Source of the DNA: a virus
Length of the DNA stretch: 64,000 nt
Virus record (IMG/VR): IMGVR_UViG_3300014050_000006
Location: 1 to 64,000 of that record
Reading direction: 5' to 3' (one strand)
The position numbers were made by a program, and so were the translations under genes. Positions 1 to 21,945 of this stretch are shown here, in pieces (the first letter of the stretch is position 1; each line of letters starts with the position of its first letter). The notes beneath the pieces are model-generated. The model was not told the DNA's origin and searched no databases. It worked only from the letters and a program-made list of their open reading frames with translations.

Positions 1-1671
1 CAAGTTACTTTAAGTAGCAGTACTGTATACGCAAATAATGTTCAAGTAAATTCTTCTGGTTATACTTTTTGGAATAGTGGCACTACATCTTCACAAAATA
101 GGTATATTAGAAGTACGAATGGCATAACACTTGGAGCTGGAGTAAATTTAAATTGGGGATCATCTGGTGCAGTTTTGGGAATAACTGGTCCTATAAATGG
201 TGGGACAGGTTCACTATTAACTATTGTGGGTAGTACGGATGCTTCTACTGGTGTTAACTCAAGGATAGGTTTAGCTTCTAATGCTATTGCAACAGTAATC
301 AATGTGCCTATGACTGTAGCTACTACTGGCACTGGGTATGCTGTCGTATCAGTAACGGATTCTTCTACTACAAATAGAATTAACGGAAATATTACCATTA
401 ATAACGGATCAAGACTTATTCTTGGCACAGGATCATCTACTAGCAGAGCATTAATTGTGTCTGGTGATATTGCATCATCTGCAGATGGTGCATTATCTAT
501 TAATGAAAGTGGTAATACTGGTCTTGTAGAACTAAGAGGAAGCAATACTATAACTGGAGATATTAATGTATATGGTCAATTAGGATATGCTAATAAAAAT
601 GCATTTGGTACAGCAAGATTAGTTCTTAACCAAGGCGCAACTTTAGGCCAAAGTCAAACTATTGGTGATAATAGTGACGCAGCAAGAATGATTAATAATA
701 ATATTCTATTAAATGGAGATGTTACTATTGGTGGATTAAGTTGGGCAAATATTCTTGGTGGTAATATAGATTTAAATAATGCTACTAGATCTATCAAAGT
801 AGATAACTCTACTACTATTTATGGAGGATTTGTTAATAGCAGCACAGGCTTAATATTTACAAATAGTTCAAGCTCTGTAGGAGGCAGAACAATGGCATTT
901 AATGGCGCTAGTACATATTCTGGTAATACATATTTTAATTCTAGTGGCACAGGTTGGAATATTAGTGTTAATAATACTAATGGATCTGCTTTTGGAACAG
1001 GAAATGTTTATGTATATAAAGGAACTTCTCTAAGTGCAAATAATACAGGCACAACATTAAATGGAAATGGAATTATCGCTGGAACAATTGGTGGAGATGC
1101 TATTGTAAGTCCAGGAAATAGTCCAGGATTATTGACTGTAGGAGCAGTAGATCCAAGTGGAGGAATGAGCTTTGCATTTGAAATTACTAGTAATTTATTA
1201 CATAATGGTACATCATATAATAATGATGTATTGAAAATAACAAATAGTCAACCATTTACTGTAGCACTAACATCTGCAAATGTTGTTAATCTATATCTAA
1301 ATTCAACAGCATATAATTTAATGTATAATAATTTACTTAATAGTTTGAGTTCATCATTTCAAACTGGATTTTTTAATACTAATGATTTTAACACTGATAT
1401 AACAAATGCAACTTATAATATGTATTTTCAAAGTGGCTTTGGAACATTAACATTCAATGGTTTAACATATGAAACATATAATGAATTTTTGACAAGAACA
1501 GGTTCTCAAGATGTTTCTTATTCTGTAAATACAAGTCAAGCTACATTAGCTGACTCTAATCTTGGATATATTTCAACTGTTAATATAATACCAGAACCTT
1601 CTCCGTTTGGTCTTTTAGTATTTGGTTCCGCAACTTTATTGGTAGCTAGGAGATTGAGAAGAAATGGATAA
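1..1671 (+). CDS. Beta-strand-rich surface protein with PEP-CTERM sorting signal (5' partial)
   Basis: The reading frame is open from base 1, so the true start lies outside the window; the first internal initiation-type codon (TTG at 175) is not the real start. The protein is low-complexity and rich in Gly, Ser, Thr and Asn, with repeated short beta strands. Around residue 300 of the visible part it has an IAGTIGGDAIVSPGNSPG stretch typical of autotransporter-associated beta-strand (PATR) proteins. The last 26 residues (bases 1591-1668) form a PEP-CTERM signal: Pro-Glu-Pro, a hydrophobic segment, then an Arg-rich tail (ARRLRRNG). In bacteria this signal directs export and processing by an exosortase at the cell envelope. 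No exosortase gene is present here, so a host enzyme would be needed. It overlaps the next gene by 8 nt. The PEP-CTERM call is firm; the role in a phage is inference. Confidence 0.8.
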   Translation, partial: QVTLSSSTVYANNVQVNSSGYTFWNSGTTSSQNRYIRSTNGITLGAGVNLNWGSSGAVLGITGPINGGTGSLLTIVGSTDASTGVNSRIGLASNAIATVINVPMTVATTGTGYAVVSVTDSSTTNRINGNITINNGSRLILGTGSSTSRALIVSGDIASSADGALSINESGNTGLVELRGSNTITGDINVYGQLGYANKNAFGTARLVLNQGATLGQSQTIGDNSDAARMINNNILLNGDVTIGGLSWANILGGNIDLNNATRSIKVDNSTTIYGGFVNSSTGLIFTNSSSSVGGRTMAFNGASTYSGNTYFNSSGTGWNISVNNTNGSAFGTGNVYVYKGTSLSANNTGTTLNGNGIIAGTIGGDAIVSPGNSPGLLTVGAVDPSGGMSFAFEITSNLLHNGTSYNNDVLKITNSQPFTVALTSANVVNLYLNSTAYNLMYNNLLNSLSSSFQTGFFNTNDFNTDITNATYNMYFQSGFGTLTFNGLTYETYNEFLTRTGSQDVSYSVNTSQATLADSNLGYISTVNIIPEPSPFGLLVFGSATLLVARRLRRNG

Positions 1672-1903
1672 TAGATTGAAAACTTTATTAAAAGAAAATT
1701 ATTATACTCCAACTTCAGAACAAACAGAAAAATTTATAAATAATTTTCATCAATATAGAGCTAAAAAGAAAGCAGAAGAAAAAACATATTATTCTTTAGG
1801 ATTAGTAATTTTATTGATTGTTACTTTATTAGGATCAATTGCTATAAAAGAAACAACAAATAAATTAGACATACAAACAGCTGCAGGAGAAATTTCAAAA
1901 TGA
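1664..1903 (+). CDS. Small single-pass membrane protein
   Basis: This 79-residue protein starts 8 nt before the end of the PEP-CTERM gene, so the two are probably translationally coupled. A charged N-terminal half (about 1-40, rich in Lys, Glu and Gln) precedes one hydrophobic helix (about 43-62) and a short polar tail. The layout resembles small anti-sigma-like or spanin-like membrane proteins, but no diagnostic motif is visible. Because it sits directly behind a surface-protein gene and ahead of a secreted protein, it probably acts at the membrane. Function unknown. Confidence 0.6.
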   Translation: MDNRLKTLLKENYYTPTSEQTEKFINNFHQYRAKKKAEEKTYYSLGLVILLIVTLLGSIAIKETTNKLDIQTAAGEISK

Positions 1904-2226
1904 AAAAGATATTATTAATTATATTAGCAGCAATAGCTTTAACTACTTATTGTTATACAGAAAATCAAATTAAAATAACTATAAAAAGAAATAATAAAGG
2001 TGAAATTTTATTAAATGTGACTGGACATTCTACTCCAATAATTATTGAAATGAATAATAAAACTACAACATTTGATGTAAATGACAAAGAAATTAATCTT
2101 GATGCAGTTTTAGATGCAGAGATAGAACCAGTAGATACAGCAAGCGGTACAGAACGATCTAATATAGACAATCAAATTCCTCCAGTTATGAGTAATTTTA
2201 ATCCACCATTAGCTACTCCATATTAG
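1900..2226 (+). CDS. Small secreted or periplasmic protein
   Basis: This 108-residue protein has a classical N-terminal signal peptide: MKK followed by a run of Leu, Ile and Ala to about residue 17. A cysteine lies at about residue 19, but the preceding residues (TTY) are a poor lipobox, so lipidation is doubtful. The mature part is polar and Asn/Glu-rich and ends in a Pro-rich tail. It overlaps the preceding gene by 4 nt (ATGA arrangement), which argues for a shared operon with the PEP-CTERM gene. No homologous family is recognised. Confidence 0.6.
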   Translation: MKKILLIILAAIALTTYCYTENQIKITIKRNNKGEILLNVTGHSTPIIIEMNNKTTTFDVNDKEINLDAVLDAEIEPVDTASGTERSNIDNQIPPVMSNFNPPLATPY

Positions 2227-2241: not shown

Positions 2242-2508
2242 ATGTTTAATAAAATATTTAAATGGTGGAATGATTTAGAATTATATAATAAAGTATTTTT
2301 TATATTATTTACTCCAGCTATGCTATTTACTCTTTGGGGTATGAGCGATCTTTATATTAATTATTTTGATGAATTAACAAAACAAGATCATCTTCAATTC
2401 TTTCTTAGAATATTTTTCCCTATATCATTAGCTACTTTTATAACAGTATTAGAACGTAATAAGAGACAAAAACTAATTAAAGACATTAAAAATTATCTTA
2501 ATGAATAG
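2242..2508 (+). CDS. Small two-pass membrane protein, holin-like in layout
   Basis: This 88-residue protein has two hydrophobic segments (about 17-38 and 51-66) and a Lys/Arg-rich C-terminal end. The size and topology fit a class II holin or a small membrane accessory protein, but no holin family motif is recognised and no endolysin gene is adjacent. There is no Shine-Dalgarno sequence before the ATG; a TAGTGTAA element lies 10 nt upstream instead. It belongs to the run of small membrane genes behind the PEP-CTERM gene, so a role tied to that protein is equally possible. Confidence 0.55.
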   Translation: MFNKIFKWWNDLELYNKVFFILFTPAMLFTLWGMSDLYINYFDELTKQDHLQFFLRIFFPISLATFITVLERNKRQKLIKDIKNYLNE

Positions 2509-2523: not shown

Positions 2524-3228
2524 ATGAGTTTAATTGTTAAAAATTTAACTTCATTAACAGTAAAAAAAAATAACTCCTTGATAGTTAAAAATATAATTCC
2601 ATCTTTAGGCCTATCTCTTTGGTTAAAAGCTGATGCTGGCGTTTCCTCAATGAGTTCAGTTGTTACGGCTTGGGCAGATCAAAGTAATAATGGAAATAAT
2701 GCTATCGGATCTGCGATTTACAATTCATCTTCAATAAATTCACTTCCAGCTATTACATTTGATGGAAATTCTTATTTACAAATAAATCAATTTCTAAATC
2801 TTTGTCTTAATTCATCTATATTTATAGTTTTAAAACCATCAAACGGTGGAAATGGAACAATACTTAGTCAAGGAACTTCTAAAATTGGATTATTTTTTGA
2901 TGGATCAAATACTCCACAAATTGCATGTCCAAATATTGCATCAATTGTAATATCGGATAGTCAAATTCTAAATAATACAACAGCTATTATTTCAGCATTA
3001 AATGATAATCATGATTTTGGAATGTGGATTAATGGATTATCGGTTGGATCAGATACTTTTAACATTGAAGGGGTAGGATCATTTTTAAATATTGGATGTA
3101 ATACTAGTACTTCTGATTATAATCTTTATGGAGATATTGCAGAGATAATAATATATAATAGAGGACTAACAATACTAGAACGTCAAAAAGTAGAAACTTA
3201 TTTAAATAATAAATATCAAATATATTGA
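2524..3228 (+). CDS. LamG/concanavalin A-like domain protein
   Basis: The 234-residue protein has a short N-terminal tag of about 25 residues and then a single jelly-roll domain. Diagnostic features are the LWLKADAGV entry strand, a DQSNNGNNA loop, a substrate-facing FDGNSYLQI strand and the closing GDIAEIIIYNR strand near the C-terminus. These are typical of the LamG/pentraxin-like families that bind glycans or decorate fibres. There is no signal peptide, which fits a virion decoration or fibre tip better than secretion. It closes the first operon; a palindrome follows its stop codon. Confidence 0.75.
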   Translation: MSLIVKNLTSLTVKKNNSLIVKNIIPSLGLSLWLKADAGVSSMSSVVTAWADQSNNGNNAIGSAIYNSSSINSLPAITFDGNSYLQINQFLNLCLNSSIFIVLKPSNGGNGTILSQGTSKIGLFFDGSNTPQIACPNIASIVISDSQILNNTTAIISALNDNHDFGMWINGLSVGSDTFNIEGVGSFLNIGCNTSTSDYNLYGDIAEIIIYNRGLTILERQKVETYLNNKYQIY

Positions 3229-3352: not shown

Positions 3353-4243
3353 ATGAATTTAAATCTTCTCAAGTCACATCCATATATTTCACCAGATATT
3401 AAAATAGAAAAATTTAATGATCCATATCCTTATATTATAATTGATAATTTATTCAAACCAGAAATCTATAAAAAAATGTGTGATAAGTTTCATACTTATA
3501 TTTCTAGAGTTCAGAAATCTTTTGGAGAAGTAGGTGACACAGGATTAAATTATGACGCTTTGATATATGCCATAAAAGAAGAAGACTGTACAGATGGATA
3601 TGATTTTTTCAAATTTAAACTTTGGCAAATTTTTATATCTAATATTTTTGATATTGAATTTAATCAACATATGGCATATAGTTTACATTTTCATAAAGGC
3701 TCGCAACAAAAACCATCTAGAAATGGTTGGCCTCATGCAGATTTAAGCATATGTTCTGCTATAGAAAATTCAGAAAAATCAATAAATCTTGGTGGAGGTT
3801 GTATTTATCCTGACGATACTCATAGTTTACAACCACATACAAAAAAAATAATGAGAAGCGTTGCTATGCTTTATTATTTTAATAATAAAAATACCTTACA
3901 AGAAGGTGATGGTGGTGGAACTGGAGTATTTAGAACATATGATATGAATTCCTTAGTTAAAGAAGTTAAACCAATTAATAATAGATTATTTGCATTTGAA
4001 ATTAGCCCAAAATCTTATCATGGATTTATTGGAGCTAAATTTGATAGATCAGCTATGGTATCTTGGTTTCATAGTAGTCCTAGTTACATGGTAAAAAGAA
4101 ATCTAGATTTATATAAAGAAAGATTTAGGCAAAATGGCGAAGTTTTTGAATATTGGAAAAAAGATAACAGATGGACACTTGATATGGACCCAGATTATAA
4201 TAAATTTTTTGATAAACCTTATAATGAATTATTTAAAAGATGA
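3353..4243 (+). CDS. 2-oxoglutarate/Fe(II)-dependent oxygenase
   Basis: The 296-residue protein has the double-stranded beta-helix signature of 2OG-Fe(II) oxygenases: a metal-binding His-x-Asp (H128, D130 in GWPHADLS), a distal His (H223 in SYHGF) and a 2OG-binding Arg nine residues later (R232). A Gly-rich loop (about 185-191) precedes the distal strands. Such enzymes hydroxylate amino-acid side chains, sugars or nucleobases. Sitting first in the sugar-modification island and followed directly by a second oxygenase-like gene, it probably modifies a glycan or virion protein. It overlaps the next gene by 4 nt. The family is clear; the substrate is not. Confidence 0.8.
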   Translation: MNLNLLKSHPYISPDIKIEKFNDPYPYIIIDNLFKPEIYKKMCDKFHTYISRVQKSFGEVGDTGLNYDALIYAIKEEDCTDGYDFFKFKLWQIFISNIFDIEFNQHMAYSLHFHKGSQQKPSRNGWPHADLSICSAIENSEKSINLGGGCIYPDDTHSLQPHTKKIMRSVAMLYYFNNKNTLQEGDGGGTGVFRTYDMNSLVKEVKPINNRLFAFEISPKSYHGFIGAKFDRSAMVSWFHSSPSYMVKRNLDLYKERFRQNGEVFEYWKKDNRWTLDMDPDYNKFFDKPYNELFKR

Positions 4244-4929
4244 AAAAAGATGTTATTATTGTAGAAAACTTTTATCAAGACCCACATAAAGTAAGAACTT
4301 ATGCTCTTAATGAATTAAAAAATAACAATTATCTTCCATATGGTTCATCAACTTGGTATGCGTCTAAATTCAAAGAATGGAATGAATGTCCATTTAAATC
4401 TTCTGATTCTTTGATAGATTCTTTAAATCGAATAACTTCAGAAGAAGTTGATTTAGATTTTTGGAGAAAAAGTTATCCTCCTCATGGAAGTCCAGAAGAT
4501 TCGATAAAAGAAAATAAAAGCTGTAAATGGAATTGTACTTTTCATATTAAACCATTAACTGGACAAAAATTAGGACAAGGAGTTCATAATCATGTTACTG
4601 ATTGTTGGAATTCAGTTGACGAAAATGGTTGGGTAGGATTAATATATTTAAATCCAGAAGCCCCAATTGATACAGGATTATTTCTTTGGGAAAATAAAGA
4701 TAAACAAAAAAATTATGATTGGATGACCCCAGAAGAAAATTGGAAATTAATAGATTCATTAGGAGCAGTTTTCAATAGATTAATACTATGCAGAGGCAGC
4801 AAACCTCATAGTGGAGCAGATGGATTTTCTGATATTTTTGAAAAAGGAAGATTGTATCAAACATTTTTCTTTAAAACAAAACCTTTGTCATCTAAAATTT
4901 TTCCATCTGTATCTATAAATATAAAATGA
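4240..4929 (+). CDS. DUF6445-like putative 2OG-Fe(II) oxygenase
   Basis: The 229-residue protein begins with the VENFYQDPHKVRTYAL motif that marks DUF6445-like proteins, which are distantly related to 2OG-Fe(II) oxygenases. Candidate metal ligands are in HNHVTD (H116/H118, D121) and a distal His at 190 (KPHSG), with a downstream Arg (R204). A WVGLIYLNP strand lies between them, as expected for the core barrel. It overlaps both neighbours by 4 nt, so it is co-translated with the upstream oxygenase and the downstream GT9-like gene. Probably acts on the same product as its neighbour; catalytic competence is inferred. Confidence 0.65.
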   Translation: MKKDVIIVENFYQDPHKVRTYALNELKNNNYLPYGSSTWYASKFKEWNECPFKSSDSLIDSLNRITSEEVDLDFWRKSYPPHGSPEDSIKENKSCKWNCTFHIKPLTGQKLGQGVHNHVTDCWNSVDENGWVGLIYLNPEAPIDTGLFLWENKDKQKNYDWMTPEENWKLIDSLGAVFNRLILCRGSKPHSGADGFSDIFEKGRLYQTFFFKTKPLSSKIFPSVSINIK

Positions 4930-5681
4930 AAGTTTATGGAATTCCAATTGGCGCTCATTTAGGCGACATATGGATAATTACAAGTGGAGCAATTTTATTA
5001 AGCTTACAAAATAAAAGTAAAATTTATATATCAAAATATGCTTATAATCTTGAAACATTTGAAAATACAAATCAAATAAACTATGAAAATAAAATTAAAG
5101 AATGCTTAAATCTTTTAAATACTTATGGCGCAGAAATTGAAATAGTTAATGAATTTCAAAATCAGCATAATACATCAACTAGATCTTTTATTATTCCAGA
5201 AAGCGCTGGATATTGTAAAAATCCACCAGTTCAAACTATTTTAAGACCAAATATAAATAATCAAAATAAAATAAGCATTCAAATAGAATCTAAATTTTAT
5301 AATAAAAATAAAAACATATATGAAGGAATAAAAGACAATTGGACTGATGAATGTAGAAATATCCATGTAGACTTTAAAAATGATATATATAGAAAGATGT
5401 TATGCTTGAAAAATTATAAAGCTACTATAGTAGGAGAACATGAAGGAGAAATTGTTAATTCAATTAAAACTTTATGCGAATCTAAAATCTTTATAGGCAT
5501 TAGTAGTGGTATGGCTCATATCGCTACAAGCGTTGGAATTCCAGTATATATTTATAATCCTAATTGCAAGCAAAAAACTTTAAATTTATCAATGATAAAT
5601 TGGCATCAAAATAAAAACATAAATACATTTGAAACATTTGATGATATTTTAAATATATTAAATGAACATAAAATTAATTGA
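4926..5681 (+). CDS. GT9-like (heptosyltransferase-type) glycosyltransferase
   Basis: The 251-residue protein has the two signatures of the GT9/ADP-heptosyltransferase fold. An N-terminal GAHLGD loop (about 9-14) corresponds to the GxxGD acceptor-side motif, and a C-terminal IGISSGMAHIATSVGIPV segment (about 190-207) corresponds to the nucleotide-sugar site. It is shorter than typical GT9 enzymes (about 320-350 residues), so part of the first Rossmann domain is reduced. It starts 4 nt before the end of the DUF6445-like gene. A role in building a surface or virion glycan is inferred from context. Confidence 0.65.
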   Translation: MKVYGIPIGAHLGDIWIITSGAILLSLQNKSKIYISKYAYNLETFENTNQINYENKIKECLNLLNTYGAEIEIVNEFQNQHNTSTRSFIIPESAGYCKNPPVQTILRPNINNQNKISIQIESKFYNKNKNIYEGIKDNWTDECRNIHVDFKNDIYRKMLCLKNYKATIVGEHEGEIVNSIKTLCESKIFIGISSGMAHIATSVGIPVYIYNPNCKQKTLNLSMINWHQNKNINTFETFDDILNILNEHKIN

Positions 5682-5690
5682 TATAATCTA

Positions 5691-6281
5691 ATGATGAGTA
5701 TTTATAAAGATTTACCATTTTTTGAAAAAGATTTAAGTGGATGGGGTGGCGATCATCCAATTTTTGAGAAACTTATTTTAAATTTAAAAACTCAACCCAA
5801 AGTTATTATAGAGGTAGGAACTTGGAAAGGTCAATCAGCAATTAATATGGCAAATATTTTAAAAAGAAATAACATAAAATGTAAAATATATTGTGTTGAT
5901 ACTTTTTTAGGCACTTGGGATTTAGAAGAAAAAGAATTAAAAAATGGTTATCCTCAAATTTATTATAAATTTCTTAATAATATTGTTCATGAAAAATGTG
6001 AAGATTATATAATTCCATGTCCAAATACTTCTTTATTTTATTATAAAAAATTTAAAGATATGAATCTTAAAGCAGATCTAATATACATAGATGGATCTCA
6101 TATGTACGAGGATGCATACGCTGATATTAGTAATTATTCAAATTTATTAAATTCAAATGGTATTATTTTTGGAGATGATTTTACTTGGGCGCCAGAGGTA
6201 GGAAAAGCTGTAAATAAATATTGTTCAGAAAATAACAAAAAATTCCAAGTAACTGAAAATAGATACTGGCAAATTTTATAA
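5691..6281 (+). CDS. Class I SAM-dependent methyltransferase (Methyltransf_24 type)
   Basis: The 196-residue protein carries the SAM-binding EVGTWKGQSA loop (41-50), an acidic residue at the end of strand 2 (CVD, 68-70), an IDGSHMYE segment (133-140) and a GDDF motif (161-164). This is the pattern of the Methyltransf_24/cephalosporin-hydroxylase-like group often seen in polysaccharide loci. Two ATGs are possible (5691 and 5694). A TATAAT box at 5682-5687 would put the second one at the 6-nt spacing seen for other genes here, but no good -35 is visible. Likely methylates a sugar; substrate unknown. Confidence 0.75.
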   Translation: MMSIYKDLPFFEKDLSGWGGDHPIFEKLILNLKTQPKVIIEVGTWKGQSAINMANILKRNNIKCKIYCVDTFLGTWDLEEKELKNGYPQIYYKFLNNIVHEKCEDYIIPCPNTSLFYYKKFKDMNLKADLIYIDGSHMYEDAYADISNYSNLLNSNGIIFGDDFTWAPEVGKAVNKYCSENNKKFQVTENRYWQIL

Positions 6282-6857
6282 ATGAATATCTTAATATTAG
6301 GTGGCAGTAAATTCGTAGGTAAAAATTTTATAAACTATGCAAATATTAATAGTAAATTTAATTTAACTTTAGCGAATAGAGGAATTACAAAAACTCCAAA
6401 TGTCATTATAGATAGAGATAATGCAAAAGATTGCGTTAATTTAAAAAACAAAGAATATGATATTGTTATAGATTTTTCTTGTTATAATTTAAATCAATTT
6501 AAAAATACTTATCAATACTTAAAGTTTAATAAGTATATATTTATATCAACTAGCGCAGTCGAGGCTATTCCATTTCAAAATGTAGAACCAGATATGTACG
6601 AAATGGTTAGATATGCCCATAATAAAAAAGAATGCGAAGACTTTATAATAAATAATATCAAAAATTATTCAATAATCAGACCTTGTTATATAGTTGGAAA
6701 AGATGATTATACTAATAGGTTCTATAAAAAAGATAATAAGTATTATTGGAATAATGGTTTAGAATTGACTTATTATATAGAAGTAGATATCTTATCTAAA
6801 TTAATATTTAATGAGATTAATAATTGCGTCAATAATATAGTAAATCCATGCAAATAA
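6282..6857 (+). CDS. Short NAD-dependent epimerase/dehydratase (extended SDR)
   Basis: The 191-residue protein has an N-terminal Rossmann motif (GGSKFVG, 7-13), a Ser-rich strand (ISTSA, 88-92) and a catalytic-type Tyr-x3-Lys (Y111, K115). These identify an extended short-chain dehydrogenase acting on nucleotide sugars. At 191 residues it is much shorter than the usual 300 or so, lacking most of the C-terminal substrate domain, so its substrate range may differ or it may need a partner. The start codon abuts the methyltransferase stop. Confidence 0.7.
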   Translation: MNILILGGSKFVGKNFINYANINSKFNLTLANRGITKTPNVIIDRDNAKDCVNLKNKEYDIVIDFSCYNLNQFKNTYQYLKFNKYIFISTSAVEAIPFQNVEPDMYEMVRYAHNKKECEDFIINNIKNYSIIRPCYIVGKDDYTNRFYKKDNKYYWNNGLELTYYIEVDILSKLIFNEINNCVNNIVNPCK

Positions 6858-6864
6858 TGTGTAA
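6858..6864 (+). promoter_or_regulatory. TGTGTAA element before the DUF5856-like gene
   Basis: A GTGTAA core directly follows the SDR stop codon (TAA, 6855-6857) and ends 8 nt before the ATG at 6873. It matches the core seen at 2224, 2506 and 15494 and upstream of virion genes on the minus strand. Confidence 0.25.
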
Positions 6865-6872
6865 TAGTTGAT

Positions 6873-7628
6873 ATGCCAATACCTCAACCAAAAAAGAACG
6901 AGTCACAAAACGATTATATGGGTCGTTGCATGCATAAAATTGGAAAAGAAGATCGTCCTCAAAACCAAAAGGTCGCTATTTGTTTAAATACCTTTCGTAA
7001 TCCAAAAGAAAAGGCAAAAGCTGAAATTGAAATAGATTTTACTGAAGATATCAAAAAAATGAATAAACCACAAGAAATAAAAGTAGAAGAAGCCCCAAAA
7101 ATTGAAGCTAAAATTGAAGAGGCAACCAATACCGCAGTAACTGCCCCAGCTTCAGAAGTTAAAATTGAAGAAAATACAGCATCTTGTGGCAAACCAAATT
7201 GTGGCTCAGTACAACAAGTAGAAGAAGTCAAAACTGAAGTTAAAGCCGAAGTAGATGGTAAAGGCGAAGTAATTCAAACCATGATGCTTCAAATGCAAAA
7301 CCAATATAAAATTTTTCATTGGCAAACAACTTCATTTTCTCAACATAAAAGCTTTGATGAAATAGTAGGAAGTTTAATCGGAAATATTGATGAATTTATT
7401 GAAACTTATATGGGTAAATATGGTAGAGTAATTTCTGCAAGTACATTCAATTTATCTCTTGCAAATTATTCTAGTTCAGATTTTATTGCGGTTACAGATG
7501 GTTATATTAACTTTTTAATTAGTTTAAGTAACCAATTAGATTCTATTAAAGATACTGATCTATTAAATATCAGAGATGAAATTCTTGGCTCTTTAAATCA
7601 ATTAAAATATTTGTTAACATTGGTATAA
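6873..7628 (+). CDS. Virion-associated protein with DUF5856-like (ferritin-like) C-terminal domain
   Basis: The 251-residue protein has three parts. Residues 1-45 contain a PQPKKNESQNDYMGRCM...VAICLN module, common at the N-termini of phage head-protease-associated proteins. Residues 60-125 form a Glu/Lys/Ala-rich, probably disordered linker. Residues 130-251 form a helical bundle with a QNQYKIFHWQTTSFSQHKSF signature resembling DUF5856, a Dps/ferritin-like family found in phages and giant viruses. A structural role is more likely than an enzymatic one. A GTGTAA element rather than a ribosome-binding site precedes the start. The DUF assignment is from memory of the motif. Confidence 0.55.
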   Translation: MPIPQPKKNESQNDYMGRCMHKIGKEDRPQNQKVAICLNTFRNPKEKAKAEIEIDFTEDIKKMNKPQEIKVEEAPKIEAKIEEATNTAVTAPASEVKIEENTASCGKPNCGSVQQVEEVKTEVKAEVDGKGEVIQTMMLQMQNQYKIFHWQTTSFSQHKSFDEIVGSLIGNIDEFIETYMGKYGRVISASTFNLSLANYSSSDFIAVTDGYINFLISLSNQLDSIKDTDLLNIRDEILGSLNQLKYLLTLV

Positions 7629-7631
7629 AAT

Positions 7632-7931
7632 ATGAGCAAACAAAATATTTGGGAATTAGACATCACAGAAACAGAAGCTTATCAAAAAAGTTATAAAGGT
7701 AAAAAAAGAAGCGAACTCAAAGACAGTGATTTTTTATTTCCAGAAGATCGTTCTTTTCCAATCGTAAGTCCACAAGATGTTCGTGATGCAATAAATAATT
7801 TTGGTCGCATGAAAAAAGGTATGAGCTATGATGCTTTTATTAAAAAGTTATATCGTAAAGCTAAAAGCAAAGGTCCAGAATTTGTATCAGCCATTCCTGA
7901 GTCAACTAAAAAAGAACACAAATTAAGTTAA
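7632..7931 (+). CDS. DUF6582-like small protein, head-maturation associated
   Basis: The 99-residue protein contains a motif common in phage capsid-maturation contexts: an SDFLFPEDRSFPIVSPQDVR strand followed by a DAINNFGR helix and a LYRKAKSKG segment (about 36-80). Such domains often occur alone or fused to phage proteases and head proteins. It lies 3 nt after the DUF5856-like gene, so the pair is co-expressed and forms a small virion-type insert in the sugar-gene island. Biochemical role unknown. Confidence 0.5.
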   Translation: MSKQNIWELDITETEAYQKSYKGKKRSELKDSDFLFPEDRSFPIVSPQDVRDAINNFGRMKKGMSYDAFIKKLYRKAKSKGPEFVSAIPESTKKEHKLS

Positions 7932-7935
7932 TTAT

Positions 7936-7964
7936 TTGACTTTACTTAATATTTAAGATAAAAT
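7936..7964 (+). promoter_or_regulatory. Sigma-70-like promoter, TTGACT-N17-TAAAAT
   Basis: The -35 TTGACT (7936-7941), exact 17-nt spacer and -10 TAAAAT (7959-7964) lie in the 41-bp gap after the DUF6582-like gene. The -10 ends 8 nt before the TTG start at 7973, so transcription would begin almost at the start codon. Confidence 0.65.
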
Positions 7965-7972
7965 TTATTATC

Positions 7973-8896
7973 TTGAATAATATTAAAGATTATATTGTAT
8001 CTTATTATAGGAATTTAGAATCTACTAAGTTAAATTCTATTGAAATAGAATATCAAAAAAGCATAAGAAATGCTTTTACAAATAATCCTGGAATTGGTGA
8101 TACAACAATTATTAATCAATTATTATTCGTTAATGAAAACCAACGTAGCGATATTAACATACTAAGCTACTCAAGACATTTTAATGATATATTAAAATTT
8201 AATAAATTTGCAAATACTAATCATATAAATGGAGAAGACTTTATTAGAACAGAATTATTAGAAATGTATAATTTAGGTTCTGGACATATAATCCAAAAAA
8301 TGCGTAGATTTTTTAATCTGCCAGTTTTAAATAAACCAAAATCATTTCTTAATACTGGTAAACAAAAAGTAAAAAATAAAATAGGTATTCATTTAACAAC
8401 TGGACAAAGTGCATTTGAATTATCTAATTTAAATTTTAGACCAAGGCAAATTTATCAAGAGAATTTAGAAATATTAAAGAAATTTATCAAAGAAAACAAT
8501 CAATATACATTTGTTGAATTTGGTGGTCAATCACTAAATATAGAAAATTGTGTTAATTTCTGTGGTAAAAGTCTAGTTGATTCTATTGAAGAATTGTCTA
8601 CTTGTGAATATCTTATTGGGTTAAATAGTGGATTCATGAATCTAGCAGCTTGTTTTGATATTAAGTCTATAATAATAGTAAATATTCCAATAAAAGCCTC
8701 AGATCTTGTTTTACCAGTTTTAAAGGATGTCAAGATACCAGATATGAATTGGCTATACCCACAGAATGTTCACCTACATCAAGATAATGAATCTTTAACA
8801 GTTCCAAGATTTTCTTATGAAAATATACGAAAAGCTATAGAAGGAAATATTTATCCATTTTGGAAAGATGAATATTTAGATTTGATCTATGATTAA
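7973..8896 (+). CDS. GT9-like glycosyltransferase with TTG start
   Basis: The 307-residue protein has a GIGDTT loop near residue 40 and a C-terminal IGLNSGFMNLAACFDIKSIIIV segment (about 215-236). Together they resemble the GT9/heptosyltransferase fold, with degenerate nucleotide-sugar residues. The TTG at 7973 is the best start: no ATG lies nearby in frame and a strong promoter ends 8 nt upstream. The C-terminal end (about 250-300) is Trp/Tyr/Pro-rich. It overlaps the next gene by 8 nt. The family call is moderate; TPR-linked variants of this fold exist. Confidence 0.55.
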   Translation: MNNIKDYIVSYYRNLESTKLNSIEIEYQKSIRNAFTNNPGIGDTTIINQLLFVNENQRSDINILSYSRHFNDILKFNKFANTNHINGEDFIRTELLEMYNLGSGHIIQKMRRFFNLPVLNKPKSFLNTGKQKVKNKIGIHLTTGQSAFELSNLNFRPRQIYQENLEILKKFIKENNQYTFVEFGGQSLNIENCVNFCGKSLVDSIEELSTCEYLIGLNSGFMNLAACFDIKSIIIVNIPIKASDLVLPVLKDVKIPDMNWLYPQNVHLHQDNESLTVPRFSYENIRKAIEGNIYPFWKDEYLDLIYD

Positions 8897-9227
8897 CCTA
8901 TTAGTTGATGAAGCTTATGCTTTTGATTACTTAAGCATACTTCATATTAAAAAAAATATTAATCCAGAATCTCAATCAAATTGGGAAAATTGTTTCTCAT
9001 ATATACAAAATCAACTTGGCGAGGATAAAATGGCAGAAATTATTCATTCGAAAGAATATCAGCACATGATCCAAGCGAATCAAATTACTTTCGATGCTGT
9101 AGAAAAAGCAAGATATGGTTCAATTACAGCCAAAGAAGTTGATGATGCTAATATGTTAAGATACAATAAAAAGTGTGAATTACAAAAAAAATTTTTTAAT
9201 AGTAAAATAAAGGAATTTAAATCATGA
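8889..9227 (+). CDS. Conserved-looking small protein linked to glycosyltransferases
   Basis: The 112-residue protein starts with a hydrophobic LLVDEAYAFDYLSIL segment and continues as predicted amphipathic helices rich in Lys, Glu and Gln. It overlaps the GT9-like gene upstream by 8 nt and the GT34-like gene downstream by 4 nt, which strongly suggests a shared pathway. No membrane helix or catalytic motif is visible. I do not recognise a named family; a chaperone or scaffolding role for the adjacent glycosyltransferases is a guess from context. Confidence 0.5.
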   Translation: MINLLVDEAYAFDYLSILHIKKNINPESQSNWENCFSYIQNQLGEDKMAEIIHSKEYQHMIQANQITFDAVEKARYGSITAKEVDDANMLRYNKKCELQKKFFNSKIKEFKS

Positions 9228-9901
9228 AAACAATGATATTTACTTTATCGAGAGATAATTATAAATCACTTAGAGATCTAACATCTCCCAATAAAATAGA
9301 ATATTGTAAAAAACATGGATATTTATTTGAAGAAAGAAATGATGATTTTCATTTTCAAAATCTTGGTTTTGAAAAAATATATAGAATATTAGAAATATTA
9401 AATCAAGATAAGTGCGACATCTTATATTGGTGTGGAACAGATACATTGATAACTAATTATAATATTAAAATTACTGATTTAATAGATGTCGAACATGATT
9501 TTTTTATTGCAACAGACGCCAATAATATAAATGCAGATTCATTTGTAATTAAAAATACAATAGATGCAAGAGAATTCTTTTTAAAAATTATAAACTCTTA
9601 TCCACAATACGCTCATCATTGTTGGGCTGAACAGCAAGTTATTATAGATCTTATAGCCCAAAATGAACATTACAAAAATATAACAAAAATACTTCCCCAA
9701 AAAATGATAAATTGCTATGATTATAATATATATCCAGATTCTAATTTTTCTGGAGCTATAGATAAACTTAGAAACAAACAAGACTATTATGGTAACTATG
9801 GTCAATGGGAACAAGGAGATTTTTTGATTCATTGGCCAGCTACTAACCTTGAACAACGATTAAATTTGACAAAGAAATATATTCCACTTATTATTAAATA
9901 G
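9224..9901 (+). CDS. GT34-like (GMA12/MNN10) galactosyl/mannosyltransferase
   Basis: The 225-residue protein follows the layout of GT34 enzymes: an N-terminal TLSRDNY strand, an ILYWCGTDTLITN segment (about 66-78) at the DxD position with only one Asp retained (D73), a central AEQQVI helix (about 135-140) and a C-terminal GDFLIHWPA motif (198-206) matching the family's GDxxxHxxG end. Such enzymes transfer Gal or Man from nucleotide sugars. The altered DxD may weaken metal binding. It overlaps the upstream gene by 4 nt and carries the next gene's promoter in its 3' end. Confidence 0.6.
   Translation: MKTMIFTLSRDNYKSLRDLTSPNKIEYCKKHGYLFEERNDDFHFQNLGFEKIYRILEILNQDKCDILYWCGTDTLITNYNIKITDLIDVEHDFFIATDANNINADSFVIKNTIDAREFFLKIINSYPQYAHHCWAEQQVIIDLIAQNEHYKNITKILPQKMINCYDYNIYPDSNFSGAIDKLRNKQDYYGNYGQWEQGDFLIHWPATNLEQRLNLTKKYIPLIIK
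9866..9894 (+). promoter_or_regulatory. Sigma-70-like promoter, TTGACA-N17-TATTAT
   Basis: A perfect -35 (TTGACA, 9866-9871), a 17-nt spacer and TATTAT (9889-9894) lie inside the 3' end of the GT34-like gene. The -10 is 16 nt before the FkbM gene's ATG (9911), predicting a leader of only about 10 nt. Confidence 0.65.
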
Positions 9902-9910
9902 TATAAAAAT

Positions 9911-10594
9911 ATGATAAATATAAAACTTATTGATAAATCAATTTATAACCTAGAATTAGATTCAGATGATTTGAAAAATCATTTTTCAGATAGAAAAAAT
10001 TGTACATTAGAAATTTTGCATCAATTTAATGATTTAAATTATTATGATAATTTTATATCTAAAGATGATAATATTATTTTAGATATTGGCGGTAATATCG
10101 GTTTATTTTCTATTCATGTATCGCCTTATGCCAAAAAGATTATTACTTTAGAACCAACGCCATCTCATTTTAAATTACTTACGAAAATTACTGCTAAATT
10201 TAATAATATTATTCCAATGAATATAGCTTTATCAAATAAATCTGGTACAGAAAGATTTTTTACTTGTCAAACTAATAGCACAATGAATTCTCTTATAAAT
10301 AGAGGACACGTTTATTTTGATGTCGAATCAATTTCTTTAAAAGATTTAATTATAAAAAATGATTTAAATAAAATTGATTTTATAAAATTAGATATAGAAG
10401 GATCAGAAGTAATAGCTTTAAATGAAGAAGTGATTGCATTTATAAGTGATAAAGTTAAAAAGATTTTAATTGAAACTCATGACGTTGGTGATGGATTAGG
10501 ATATGGACACAGAGAAAGATTTGGTGAAATGTTCAAGAATAATGGTTATAAAATTAATTATTTTGGACCAGATGGAGTTTTTGCTTATAAATGA
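9911..10594 (+). CDS. FkbM-family SAM-dependent methyltransferase
   Basis: The 227-residue protein shows the FkbM hallmarks in order: LDIGGNIGLFSI (57-68) for SAM binding, LEPTPSHF (80-87) at strand 2, and IKLDIEGSEVIAL (158-170). FkbM-type enzymes O-methylate sugars or polyketides and are frequent in phage and bacterial glycan clusters. A strong promoter sits just upstream, so this gene can head a transcript running into the transketolase and epimerase genes; it overlaps the transketolase N-terminal gene by 4 nt. The substrate is probably the sugar made by those neighbours. Confidence 0.8.
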   Translation: MINIKLIDKSIYNLELDSDDLKNHFSDRKNCTLEILHQFNDLNYYDNFISKDDNIILDIGGNIGLFSIHVSPYAKKIITLEPTPSHFKLLTKITAKFNNIIPMNIALSNKSGTERFFTCQTNSTMNSLINRGHVYFDVESISLKDLIIKNDLNKIDFIKLDIEGSEVIALNEEVIAFISDKVKKILIETHDVGDGLGYGHRERFGEMFKNNGYKINYFGPDGVFAYK

Positions 10595-11214
10595 ATAAAT
10601 TAGAAAAAAGAATACTAGAAATAAGTTATAATCATAAATTATCTCATTTATCTAGCAATTTAAGTTCTGTGTCTATAATAGATGAAATCTATTCACTTAA
10701 AAAAGAAAATGAACCATTTATTTTAAGTAATGGTCATGCAGGATTAGCTTTATATGTAGTTCTAGAAAAATATTACGGAATCAATGCAGAAAAACTTCAT
10801 GAAAAACATGGAGTTCATCCAAACAGAGATTTAGAAAATAAAATTTTTTATTCAACAGGTAGTTTAGGTTGTGGGTTGCCAGCTGCATGTGGCATGGCCT
10901 TAGCAGACAAAACTAGAAATGTTTACTGCTTAATAAGTGATGGAGAAATGTTTGAAGGAAGTATTTATGAAACTTTTAATATAGTTAATAAATATAAAAT
11001 AAATAATTTAAAAATATATGCTAATGTTAATGGATATAGTGCTTTAGCACAATTTGATAAATATGAAATTATTCAAAAATTAAAAAATTTACATCAAAAC
11101 ATAGAAATAAGATTAACCGATTATATTTATAAAAAATTTCCATTTGTTAATGGATTAGCTGGACATTATAATGTATTAACTGAAAAAGAAATGGAAACTA
11201 TCAAAAATGCGTAG
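10591..11214 (+). CDS. Transketolase-like, N-terminal (thiamine-diphosphate-binding) subunit
   Basis: The 207-residue protein is the PP domain of a transketolase. It has SNGHAG (46-51), GSLGCGL (90-96) and the ThDP/Mg motif as SDGEMFEG (116-123) followed about 25 residues later by ANVNG (144-148). The usual first Gly of GDG is Ser here, but the metal-binding Asp and Asn remain. At 207 residues it is shorter than stand-alone N-subunits (about 270). Overlap of 8 nt with the C-subunit gene implies a heteromeric enzyme. In sugar clusters such enzymes move two-carbon units to make branched or longer sugars; that role is inferred. Confidence 0.8.
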   Translation: MNKLEKRILEISYNHKLSHLSSNLSSVSIIDEIYSLKKENEPFILSNGHAGLALYVVLEKYYGINAEKLHEKHGVHPNRDLENKIFYSTGSLGCGLPAACGMALADKTRNVYCLISDGEMFEGSIYETFNIVNKYKINNLKIYANVNGYSALAQFDKYEIIQKLKNLHQNIEIRLTDYIYKKFPFVNGLAGHYNVLTEKEMETIKNA

Positions 11215-11683
11215 AATATTTTTTCAAGAATTACATAAAAATATGAGCCAAAATGATAAGATATTATCATTAACTGGAGATCTTGGTTATGGTGGTTTTG
11301 ATAAGATAATATCTGATTATCCCGATAGATTTTTAAATTGTCAAGCAGCAGAATTTTCTATGATGGGAGTCGCATGTGGATTAGCTCTCGAAGGCAAAAT
11401 ACCAGTTGTTTATTCGATTGGTACTTTTTTAATTTATAGACCATTTGAGATAATTAGAACATATATCAATCATGAAAATATTCCAGTAAAATTAATTTGT
11501 AGTGGCAGAGATAAAGATTATGAACACGATGGCATTAGTCATTGGATGGATGATATTAAGGAATACCTAGATACTTTTAAAAATATAAAACAATACTGGC
11601 CCCAAAATGAAAAAGAAATGATAGATTCTTTACCAGAATTATTAAATAATAATAAACCATGTTTTTTAAGTTTAAAAAGATAA
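11207..11683 (+). CDS. Transketolase-like, pyrimidine-binding subunit lacking the C-terminal domain
   Basis: The 158-residue protein matches the Pyr domain of transketolase/DXS enzymes: LTGDLG (22-27), the conserved Glu that activates ThDP (E49 in QAAEFSMMG), the VVYSIGTFLIYRPFE strand-helix (67-81) and a DGISHW His (H112). The third transketolase domain is absent, whereas stand-alone C-subunits are about 300 residues. With the upstream gene it would make a minimal two-domain enzyme. The stop codon abuts the start of the SDR gene. Confidence 0.8.
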   Translation: MRRIFFQELHKNMSQNDKILSLTGDLGYGGFDKIISDYPDRFLNCQAAEFSMMGVACGLALEGKIPVVYSIGTFLIYRPFEIIRTYINHENIPVKLICSGRDKDYEHDGISHWMDDIKEYLDTFKNIKQYWPQNEKEMIDSLPELLNNNKPCFLSLKR

Positions 11684-12457
11684 ATGAAGATTTTAGTTAC
11701 TGGTGGTTCTGGATTTGTAGGCAAAAGTCTAATATCTAAATTAAATAAATATACTTTACTATATCCAACTAGCACGGAACTAGATTTAACTGATGCGAAA
11801 AAACTAGAAGATTATTTAGATTTTCATAATTTTGATTTCATTATTAATTCTGCAGTAAGAGGTGGAAGAAGAACTAGAGTAGATACTGAAAAAGATTTTT
11901 ATAATAATATTAAAATATTAGATAATATTTTAAATCTTAAAAAAGAAAATACAAAGCTAATAACTTTTTCTAGCGGAGCAGAAATATATAAGCAAGATAC
12001 TTTTTATGGATTAAGTAAAAAAATTTGTACATCTTTAATTAAAGATAAACAAAATATAAAAAATTTAAGAATATTTAATGTATTTGGTGAACTTGGGATG
12101 AAGGATTCTTTCGTATATTCTACTATAGAAAAATGTTTAAAAAATGAAGATATAGTAATTTGGGAAAATTTGTTTTTCGATGTATATTATATTAACGATT
12201 TAATTAATTTAATTGATTTAATTATAATTAATAATTCAAAAGAATATGAAGAAATTGATTGCGTATATGAAAAAAAATATAAACTAAGTGATATAGCGCA
12301 AATTATTAAAAATATATCTAATTCCAAAAGTAATATCATTATACAAAACGATAATAATTTAAAATATATAGGTAATCATAAACATATACCCAATCTGCAT
12401 TTAACTTCAATAGAAGATAGTTTAAATAATTTAATCCAATATCAAATAAATAATTGA
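11684..12457 (+). CDS. NAD-dependent nucleotide-sugar epimerase/reductase (extended SDR)
   Basis: The 257-residue protein has the Rossmann motif GGSGFVG (7-13), an INSAVRGG segment (54-61), catalytic-type Ser (ITFSSGAE, 93-100) and Tyr-x3-Lys (Y108, K112). The NSAxxGG pattern resembles GDP-fucose synthetase and related 3,5-epimerase/4-reductases, which would fit the GDP-mannose 4,6-dehydratase gene next door: dehydratase product, then reduction to a 6-deoxyhexose. It is shorter than GDP-fucose synthetase (about 310). Exact product unknown. Confidence 0.7.
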   Translation: MKILVTGGSGFVGKSLISKLNKYTLLYPTSTELDLTDAKKLEDYLDFHNFDFIINSAVRGGRRTRVDTEKDFYNNIKILDNILNLKKENTKLITFSSGAEIYKQDTFYGLSKKICTSLIKDKQNIKNLRIFNVFGELGMKDSFVYSTIEKCLKNEDIVIWENLFFDVYYINDLINLIDLIIINNSKEYEEIDCVYEKKYKLSDIAQIIKNISNSKSNIIIQNDNNLKYIGNHKHIPNLHLTSIEDSLNNLIQYQINN

Positions 12458-12482
12458 ATTTTATCTTTATAGAGTATAAAAT
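12454..12482 (+). promoter_or_regulatory. Sigma-70-like promoter, TTGAAT-N17-TAAAAT
   Basis: TTGAAT (12454-12459), an exact 17-nt spacer and TAAAAT (12477-12482) span the SDR stop codon and the short gap. The -10 ends 6 nt before the ATG at 12489, predicting a leaderless mRNA. Confidence 0.55.
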
Positions 12483-12488
12483 ATTAAA

Positions 12489-13631
12489 ATGAGTCAAAAT
12501 TTTAAAGAAACATATTACGGCAAAAAGATAGATACAGCTAATATTTTAAATATTGAAGACGCCGCAAAGATAATAAAAGGAAGAAAAACTGTAGTAATTA
12601 CTGGAGTTACTGGTCAAGATGGTAGCCATATGGTTGATTTTTTGTTAAAAAATACTGATCTTTTAATATTTGGAGGAGTTAGGAGACTTAGTGTTTATAA
12701 TCATAAAAATATTAAACATATTAATTCTGATAGATTTCATTTAATTAATTTTGATTTAACAGATTCTCATGCAATAGCAAGAACTGTAGAAAAACTTCAA
12801 CCAGATTATTTTATTAATTTCGCTGCTCAAAGTTTTGTTGCAAGTAGTTGGGATTTTGCTAGGCAAACATGGGCTACAAATTCAACTTCTGTATTGGATA
12901 TTTTAGAAGCAATTAGATTATATAAACCAAATTGTAGATTATATCAAGCTGGATCTAGCGAAGAATTTGGTAATGTTCTTTATGCACCACAAGATGAAAA
13001 ACATCCGTTAAGGCCAAGAAGCCCTTATGGAGCAAGTAAAGCTGCATCTAGACAACTTATTAAAGTTTATCGTGATTCTTATAATCTTTATGCAATTCAA
13101 GGATGGTTATTTAATCATGAAGGAACAAGACGCGGCGAAGAATTTGTAACAAGAAAAATTACAAAAAATGTTGCTAGAATTTATCATGCATTAAAAAATA
13201 ATCAAGAATTTATTCCTTTAGAATTAGGAAACATGGAAGCAAAAAGAGATTGGAGTGATTCAGAAGATTTCATTGAAGGCGTATGGATGATGTTAAATCA
13301 AGATATTTATAATAAAAATTATAATGGAATACCCCAAGAATACGTTTTCTCATCTAATGAAACTCATACAATTAAAGAATTTGTAGAAAAAGCTTTTGAT
13401 ATTGCTGGCATAAAAGGAAATTGGATAGGTCAAAATGAACATTTAATGTATGTTTTAAATGATAAAACCTTAGTTCAAATTAATCCTAAATTTTATAGAC
13501 CAGCAGAAGTAGAGTTATTACTTGGAGATTCTACAAAAGCTAGAGAAGAATTAGGATGGAAACCAAAAATTTCATTTGACAATTTAATCAAAAAGATGGT
13601 AATATCAGATATTGAAAATTACCAACCATAA
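12489..13631 (+). CDS. gmd: GDP-mannose 4,6-dehydratase
   Basis: The 380-residue protein is a clear GMD: GVTGQDGSHM (39-48) at the NADP site, FAAQSFVASSW (111-121), catalytic GSSEEFG (155-161), the Tyr-x3-Lys pair in SPYGASKA (Y180, K184) and the Arg-rich NHEGTRRGEEFVTRKI segment (209-224). It converts GDP-D-mannose to GDP-4-keto-6-deoxymannose, the precursor of fucose, rhamnose, colitose or perosamine. An N-terminal extension of about 30 residues precedes the usual start; a promoter 6 nt upstream supports the ATG at 12489. The neighbouring SDR is the likely next enzyme. Confidence 0.9.
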   Translation: MSQNFKETYYGKKIDTANILNIEDAAKIIKGRKTVVITGVTGQDGSHMVDFLLKNTDLLIFGGVRRLSVYNHKNIKHINSDRFHLINFDLTDSHAIARTVEKLQPDYFINFAAQSFVASSWDFARQTWATNSTSVLDILEAIRLYKPNCRLYQAGSSEEFGNVLYAPQDEKHPLRPRSPYGASKAASRQLIKVYRDSYNLYAIQGWLFNHEGTRRGEEFVTRKITKNVARIYHALKNNQEFIPLELGNMEAKRDWSDSEDFIEGVWMMLNQDIYNKNYNGIPQEYVFSSNETHTIKEFVEKAFDIAGIKGNWIGQNEHLMYVLNDKTLVQINPKFYRPAEVELLLGDSTKAREELGWKPKISFDNLIKKMVISDIENYQP

Positions 13632-13953
13632 ACTTTGTCAATTTATAGTCAAAAAATTTGTAAAAAAAGATATAATTTGGCCAAAAGAAATTAAAATAGC
13701 TAAAACTTTAATACAAAGTTATACTTATTTTAAATATTGGAATAATTTAACAGAATTAAATTTACCTAGTTTAGCATGGTTTTTAACAAGTGATGGTAAA
13801 AATTTTTTAAGAAAAGAATACTTTAAACAAAAATTAACTCTTAAAGAACGTAAAAATATAATTCTTCAAGAAAATAAATTAGGAGAAGATAAAAAAGTTT
13901 GCCAAAAACCTAAAAGTTTGTTAGAATTTATAAGATATGGGAAGAAAACCTAA
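13612..13953 (+). CDS. Small basic protein upstream of the recombinase
   Basis: The 113-residue protein starts with TTG 20 nt inside the end of gmd and overlaps the recombinase gene by 17 nt. It is Lys-rich (strongly basic) and Trp-containing, with no membrane helix. The central IKIAKTLIQSYTYFKYWNNL stretch looks helical. Position and charge suggest a DNA-binding accessory to the recombinase, comparable in setting to mediator proteins of T4-type phages, but there is no recognisable UvsY or gp59 motif. The non-ATG start is the only one covering the conserved-looking N-terminus. Confidence 0.5.
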   Translation: MKITNHKLCQFIVKKFVKKDIIWPKEIKIAKTLIQSYTYFKYWNNLTELNLPSLAWFLTSDGKNFLRKEYFKQKLTLKERKNIILQENKLGEDKKVCQKPKSLLEFIRYGKKT

Positions 13954-21720: not shown

Positions 21721-21945
21721 ATGGCATCATTAGACGATGTATACGACATGACGCAAAAATTAGAAGATAATAACATCGAATATCTTTTAATTACAATCAC
21801 TAAAGGTAAAAAACAAGGTAAAGCTGATGTATTTTATTATCTTAAAAATGCAGAATCTATGAGAGTTCTAGCTAAAGGTTTAGAAGCATTTAATCAAGAA
21901 ATAGATAATATAGAAAGAGACGAAAACTCAGATGATGAATCTTAA
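21721..21945 (+). CDS. Small acidic protein of the polymerase operon
   Basis: The 74-residue protein has one alpha/beta unit (EYLLITITKGKKQGKADVFYYL, then a helix with MRVLAKGLEAF) and an acidic tail ending DENSDDES. The same layout, with a GYILFNF strand and acidic end, occurs in the protein at 15508-15804. It overlaps the polymerase gene by 14 nt and follows the exonuclease by 1 nt. It may be a small holoenzyme accessory; no named family recognised. Confidence 0.5.
   Translation: MASLDDVYDMTQKLEDNNIEYLLITITKGKKQGKADVFYYLKNAESMRVLAKGLEAFNQEIDNIERDENSDDES

Follow-up and report, generated by a model that had tools for sequence, protein, structure and literature searches.

A Hypervariable Phage Locus for PEP-CTERM Surface Proteins of Probable Verrucomicrobiota Origin

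Introduction

Why should a phage carry a protein tagged for a bacterial sorting machine? The question is raised by a gene at the left end of the virus record IMGVR_UViG_3300014050_000006 (112,811 bases), of which we analyzed bases 1–64,000, called here the window. This gene ends in a PEP-CTERM signal, the tag for exosortase processing. Exosortase sorting has been described as a bacterial system, and the function of its substrates is little known (Haft et al., 2006, PMC1569441). A first-pass annotation, made from the letters of the window, had drawn attention to this single gene. We find that it occupies, as one gene among others, a hypervariable slot shared across a phage clade. The slot is bounded upstream by the gene of a putative transglutaminase-like cysteine protease anchored in the membrane and downstream by a gene for a 79-residue membrane protein. 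The PEP-CTERM signal is known; what is new is its phage carrier and the hypervariable arrangement.

Results

The window gene ends in a PEP-CTERM sorting signal

Two genes mark the contig as phage, one for the large subunit of terminase (phrog_2, E = 1.8e-25), the other for a tape-measure protein (phrog_4211, E = 1.6e-53). The contig starts within the gene of interest, leaving the open reading frame (ORF) at 1–1671 open at its 5′ end; the ORF ends VNIIPEPSPFGLLVFGSATLLVARRLRRNG. A PEP motif, a hydrophobic helix (17-residue mean hydropathy 1.56) and a basic cluster, the features by which PEP-CTERM proteins are recognized, are all present in its tail, and the interval first annotated, 1591–1668, spans this tail exactly from PEP on. 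Against TIGR02595 the isolated 26-residue tail scores 17.6 bits (curated cut-off 16); against PF07589 it scores 18.4 bits, below the cut-off of 20.7. The whole ORF stays under both cut-offs (10.3 and 13.4 bits, respectively), and relatives exceed the curated cut-offs. The models whose failure would have spoken against the signal thus match both the isolated tail and the relatives.

When an independent profile, built from 34 Verrucomicrobiota PEP-CTERM tails, was scored on the last 40 residues of 504 phage ORFs, seven slot genes took ranks 1–7 (18.7–25.7 bits), the window tail among them with 21.4 bits (E = 5e-6). The next-best ORF reached 6.8 bits, as did the best of 5,040 shuffled tails. We conclude from the shuffled tails and the other phage ORFs that a chance origin of the tail is excluded.

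In five IMG/VR contigs the gene is complete and flanked left and right by phage genes, and its products are 89–96% identical to that of the window. Hence the window gene is truncated by the contig end and not at a chromosome junction. The full-length relatives have 642–653 residues (about 644 for the window gene) and begin with a signal peptide, MKINLLKRLLKNTAASLIAVFLCSNAKA, cleaved near AKA/A to give a mature start AATLYWD. By simple hydropathy, the relative L009 has just two hydrophobic segments, residues 15–31 and 621–637, corresponding to signal peptide and tail, with no transmembrane (TM) segment between them. Its ectodomain contains 0% Cys, 0.8% Lys, 14.8% Thr and 11.7% Ser, against a phage background of 1.0% Cys and 7.3% Lys, and is thus low in Cys and poor in basic residues; a Cys-free, Ser/Thr/Asn/Gly-rich composition was measured in two slot proteins. 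The combination of a signal peptide with a low-Cys, low-Lys, Ser/Thr-rich ectodomain fits the published description of PEP-CTERM proteins (PMC1569441).

The gene had also been described as a fusion to a PATR-like beta-strand protein. This part of the claim does not stand for the window ORF: the PATR models PF12951 and TIGR02601 found no match in the window protein or in L009. It does stand for the family, since one slot protein from a related phage (L122) matches, in one chain, PF12951 (41.4 bits, cut-off 27), TIGR02601 (40.9 bits, cut-off 19.85) and TIGR02595 (25.2 bits, cut-off 16). PATR membership, as judged by these models, therefore belongs to the slot family and not to the window protein. 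In the slot proteins tested, neither Pfam nor NCBIfam shows a C-terminal outer-membrane beta-barrel; the chain ends in the PEP-CTERM tail, and by this measure the proteins would not count as classical (type Va) autotransporters. A structure model of the slot protein was of low confidence (mean predicted local distance difference test, pLDDT, 47.9) and gave no significant fold match (all E > 0.5); it shows an N-terminal helix, beta-strand repeats and a C-terminal helix, which we take as a hint only.

Pairwise ratios of nonsynonymous to synonymous divergence (dN/dS) over the long slot gene lie at 0.07–0.23 in 5–6 phages, indicating purifying selection. In L008 the last 27 codons stand at dS 1.3–1.5 relative to the others, with synonymous sites nearly saturated, which points to a recombined 3′ end. 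The PEP motif, hydrophobic stretch and basic end are all kept there, as would be expected if the tail is used.

The slot is refilled with different PEP-CTERM proteins

A scan with the upstream protein (177–183 residues) found its gene in 60 IMG/VR contigs. Among the 34 with a slot occupant, 28 have at least one slot gene ending in PEP-CTERM by strict criteria; TIGR02595 adds L094, giving 29, and the window's own contig makes 30 (two contig pairs within these counts are identical in the slot). Of the other occupied slots, four are cut by the contig end and one (L095) has a short ORF with only a partial tail. Related phages, which the first-pass annotation had suggested checking, thus do carry the signal, and in the same slot. 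Over whole records, TIGR02595 scored above its cut-off in 12 of 12 filled-slot phages versus 0 of 10 phages lacking a slot gene.

An occupied slot holds one to three PEP-CTERM genes, as in L128 with products of 241, 277 and 265 residues. Clustering of the complete slot proteins at 40% identity gives twelve groups, some of them ending in altered tails, which leaves about ten unrelated ectodomain families. The first slot gene nearly always begins with the same kind of signal peptide (MKINLLKRLLK-TAA-LIAAFL). Between phages the ectodomain is swapped, while the 5′ signal-peptide end stays constant and the 3′ PEP-CTERM end is usually constant in the last gene of an array. Thus L018, retrieved by a scan with the 79-residue protein, has an 897-residue slot protein whose ectodomain is locally about 33% identical and whose signal peptide and PEP-CTERM end match. 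In L006 and L007 a long gene from whose product the TM segment and basic end have been lost is followed by a second gene (262 or 280 residues) with its own signal peptide and PEP-CTERM; the two second proteins are 36% identical overall and agree at 19 of the final 27 positions.

In about ten related phages the slot is empty: the protease-like gene is followed directly by a gene for a 61-residue relative of the 79-residue protein and by the two-TM gene. The PhoH genes of one of these phages, L132, and of the window phage are 87.5% identical; hence empty and filled slots occur among close relatives.

Alternative C-termini of the form IPEP(T/S)xLxLI(S/N/T)xP... occur in some slot genes, usually with another slot gene behind them (L006:9600-9695, L007:9600-9695, L092:1384-3159, L093:4057-4782, L095:4553-7510 and L103:4529-5260). 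PEP is retained, and in place of the TM segment and basic end stand three distinct tails, each conserved, which may be sorting signals of a second kind or may have arisen by recombination. A pseudopilin-like gene lies beside slot genes in four contigs (L095:7664-8332, L109:7718-8386, L123:7000-7668 and L096:6646-6954). The L123 copy matches N_methyl PF07963 (25.8 bits) and TIGR02532 (25.5 bits), both above cut-off, and weakly Verru_Chthon cassette protein D (TIGR02596); its product is another host-type envelope protein in these phages.

The slot proteins have relatives in Verrucomicrobiota

The mature N-terminus was scanned against 84,980 bacterial and archaeal species genomes. This GTDB-wide scan returned eight relatives, all within Verrucomicrobiota as GTDB delimits the phylum. 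They carry the names Opitutaceae, Verrucomicrobiaceae, Akkermansiaceae, Akkermansia, Prosthecobacter and Kiritimatiellales; GTDB counts Kiritimatiellales with Verrucomicrobiota. The long slot protein has matches in 21 of 388 Verrucomicrobiota genomes, some to its N-terminal end and others to its C-terminal part, and several of these homologues end in PEP-CTERM. For the 277-residue slot family, a 60% identical full-length homologue, ending VPEPSSALLAGLSLIGLFHRRRRTE, was found on a bacterial contig (GC content 0.62) of genome G229; an adjoining 333-residue paralogue matches the same family at 55% and has a different C-terminus.

Exosortase is encoded in seven of the eight genomes with N-terminal relatives and in all three other genomes tested, all of them genomes of candidate hosts; G229 has three exosortase matches. 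None was detected in six phage records tested. A host-derived origin of the slot surface proteins is well supported by these comparisons, at least one ectodomain family being also present in Verrucomicrobiota chromosomes. From the relatives of the slot genes, the G229 homologue with exosortase alongside and the lack of exosortase in the phages tested, Verrucomicrobiota are the likely hosts of the clade. The clue to host identity seen in the first pass has thus become concrete.

A putative membrane-anchored protease bounds the slot upstream

The N-terminus of the upstream protein is rich in lysine; the protein also has a single TM segment and a domain in which Cys56, His98 and Asp113 are invariant in 21 diverse sequences. 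It had no meaningful match in Pfam or NCBIfam, its profile retrieved only noise from PDB sequences, and no match was found among 50,697 named phages. An AlphaFold2 model has a mean pLDDT of 71, rising to about 90 in the domain core, and among PDB folds it comes closest to vasohibins, with probabilities up to 1.00 and a best E of 0.004. Vasohibins are transglutaminase-like cysteine proteases. The Cys-His-Asp triad and the predicted fold together make the upstream protein a probable member of this class, by a match of fold only. Its gene is also present in empty-slot phages, so the protease is not specific to PEP-CTERM cargo; a LapG-like pairing with the slot proteins was considered and not adopted because the gene persists when the slot is empty. 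A possible target of the protease is the host envelope.

The window's own phage, L004, has on its minus strand, at 3539-3937, a gene for a secreted protein homologous to the protease family (YPNSC...GHAVCVYEW...YLYDINNG; about 30% identical, E = 1e-7). Beside it, at L004:3939-4532 on the same strand, lies a gene for an exported protein that resembles, by eye only, a C39-type peptidase.

Genes around the slot and the rest of the phage

The features of the locus are collected in Table 1. The 8-base overlap between the slot gene and the gene for the 79-residue protein recurs in all seven closest phages, and relatives of the latter gene mark the 3′ edge of the slot in more distant phages too. Counterparts of the variable gene at the right of the table encode GDSL/GH16 or baseplate-like proteins in relatives (GH16 plus GDSL in L006, BppL_N in L009). 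We also considered whether the small membrane genes form a lytic cassette; no match backs this reading.

Table 1. Positions of the slot, its signal and adjoining genes (window coordinates unless a contig is named)
Feature	Position	Strand	Remarks
Upstream protease family	L009:7179-7730, L005:6576-7109, L018:2775-3308		about 55 further IMG/VR contigs
Slot gene	1..1671	+	3′ 556 codons of secreted beta-strand-rich surface protein; full-length relatives L005-L009 89-96% identical
PEP-CTERM sorting signal	1591..1668	+	PEP, hydrophobic helix, RRLRRNG end; encodes PEPSPFGLLVFGSATLLVARRLRRNG
79-residue single-TM membrane protein	1664..1903	+	start overlaps last 8 bases of slot gene; TM residues 45-61; 3′ edge of slot
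108-residue exported small protein	1900..2226	+	N-terminal hydrophobic segment; next in operon with 79-residue protein gene; gene order kept in relatives
88-residue two-TM membrane protein	2242..2508	+	conserved even in empty-slot phages
Variable gene, concanavalin-like domain	2524..3228	+	PF13385, E 3.2e-5, weak, below cut-off

Farther downstream, reading of the translations indicates a block of sugar and glycosyltransferase-type genes (3353-15000), with transketolase-like halves at 10591-11683 and nucleotide-sugar-epimerase-like ORFs; relatives have other gene sets at the matching position. The window also encodes an 855-residue phage DNA polymerase III alpha-type protein (21932-24499; PF07733, E = 5.9e-55), accompanied by a DnaB-type helicase (15861-17345).

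The slot proteins of the window and of two relatives had no match among the same 50,697 named phages, the terminase gave only distant matches there (about 25% identity), and a PHROGs search of ten large window ORFs returned nothing. No integrase was found in seven of the phage records, which suggests a virulent life style for the clade, unproven since the records may be fragments.

Discussion

We hold, with about even confidence, that the slot is a hypervariable display locus whose host-derived proteins, sorted by host exosortase, remodel the surface of the infected cell, most likely against competing phages. A slot protein would be made during infection and exported by Sec. Its tail would then hold it in the inner membrane until host exosortase cuts at PEP, and the cleaved protein would be passed to the outer surface or the exopolysaccharide matrix. 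There the ectodomain chosen by the phage would alter what binds the infected cell, most likely by masking or displacing receptors. Receptor masking would reduce the adsorption of competing phages, that is, cause superinfection exclusion, with cell aggregation as second choice. The exchange and stacking of ectodomains beside variable fibre and glycan-enzyme genes fits a surface arms race, and the exclusion role is proposed from location and variability alone. The anatomy and origin of the slot genes are well supported by comparison of sequences; their biological effect we infer. More tentatively, and with less than even confidence, we suggest that ectodomains derived from hosts are exchanged and stacked in the locus between a constant signal peptide and the PEP-CTERM tag, that the host machine would recoat each infected cell in a phage-specific way, and that the adjacent protease may trim or release surface proteins.

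Several points weigh against display aimed at competing phages. Exchangeable ectodomains fit receptor masking but would fit adhesion or defence against grazing equally well. The host assignment comes from the origin of the cargo, and terminase matches in Verrucomicrobiota genomes are only weak. In a few slots (L006, L007, L092, L093, L095 and L103) a gene other than the last keeps IPEP and lacks the TM segment and basic end, so not every slot product can be sorted in the usual way.

Among other explanations, the one we take most seriously, while still thinking it unlikely, is that the slot proteins are exosortase-sorted adhesins or matrix proteins through which an infected cell would adhere to its neighbours or to matrix, so that fresh hosts are at hand when it bursts. 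PATR beta-strand ectodomains occur in several slots, and the weak fold matches of the low-confidence model, all with E > 0.5, are mostly beta-helical surface or adhesion proteins. PEP-CTERM proteins are needed for floc formation in Zoogloea, according to work cited in PMC12642866, and two slot proteins weakly match the model for the flocculation protein PepA; these matches, however, lie far under the cut-off and are driven mostly by the tail. Aggregation also gives no obvious need for rapid ectodomain exchange or for arrays of up to three genes. That the genes are passengers captured from hosts by recombination, of no benefit to the phage, would agree with the empty slots and with an ectodomain family common to a phage slot and a bacterial chromosome. 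We judge it improbable given the low dN/dS, the fact that signal peptide and PEP-CTERM survive exchanges of the ectodomain, and the recurrent refilling of the slot with the same protein class and not with random host genes.

It is more doubtful still that the slot products are parts of the virion, such as fibres or decorations: neighbouring genes do encode variable fibre-like, GH16/GDSL and baseplate-like proteins, but the composition and relatives of the slot proteins are those of bacterial surface proteins. A left flank of bacterial chromosome or an assembly chimera, which the first pass had named as a finding that would overturn it, could be suspected from a truncated gene of bacterial type at the contig end. 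The five complete internal copies, the terminase and tape-measure genes of the contig and the synteny of the slot in dozens of phage contigs refute it, and we give it almost no credence.

That a lytic-type phage clade retains, exchanges and multiplies PEP-CTERM proteins points to a selected role for them at the infected-cell surface. The slot offers natural sets of ectodomains, with empty-slot controls, for probing the function of PEP-CTERM proteins, some of which have been detected in Akkermansia by mass spectrometry (PMC4960237). It also provides a sequence handle for phages of Verrucomicrobiota, on which we found little in the literature searched.

Like transglutaminase-like cysteine proteases of vasohibin or papain-like fold, the upstream protein combines an invariant Cys-His-Asp with a vasohibin-like predicted fold; it differs in being membrane-anchored, in occurring here in viral contigs, in being kept when the slot is empty and in showing no sequence match above noise. 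Phage-encoded surface exclusion proteins are exemplified by the Llp lipoprotein of T5, and the slot proteins would resemble them in acting at the infected-cell surface against further adsorption. The ones known to us are small lipoproteins or proteins of the inner membrane, and none of them is sorted by exosortase or has beta-strand ectodomains that are swapped. For proteins with an exosortase signal in viral contigs we found one precedent: 13 TIGR03118 proteins, a family with a putative exosortase interaction domain, are listed among proteins derived from horizontal gene transfer in Yellowstone hot-spring viruses (PMC11003980). That is a one-line entry, which mentions neither a slot nor exchange nor a host; we found no further exosortase-type proteins in viruses in the open-access literature, and with subscription papers outside the search, priority is uncertain.

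Close bacterial counterparts are the PATR/autotransporter-type PEP-CTERM proteins of Verrucomicrobiota (PF12951, TIGR02601; homologues L026-L045 and L146), which share the mature motif AATLYWDTNG, the beta-strand ectodomain and the tail. The phage versions differ in lying between phage membrane-protein genes and in having about 30% GC, against 43–72% in the bacterial loci. With the PEP-CTERM/exosortase system at large (EpsH/XrtA; TIGR02595, PF07589, PF09721) they have in common the signal peptide, the low-Cys, Ser/Thr-rich ectodomain and the PEP, hydrophobic helix and basic end, as well as a likely host type that carries exosortase. Chromosomal PEP-CTERM genes are typically single-gene operons; the slot genes, in contrast, are encoded by phages without an exosortase of their own, and their ectodomains are swapped.
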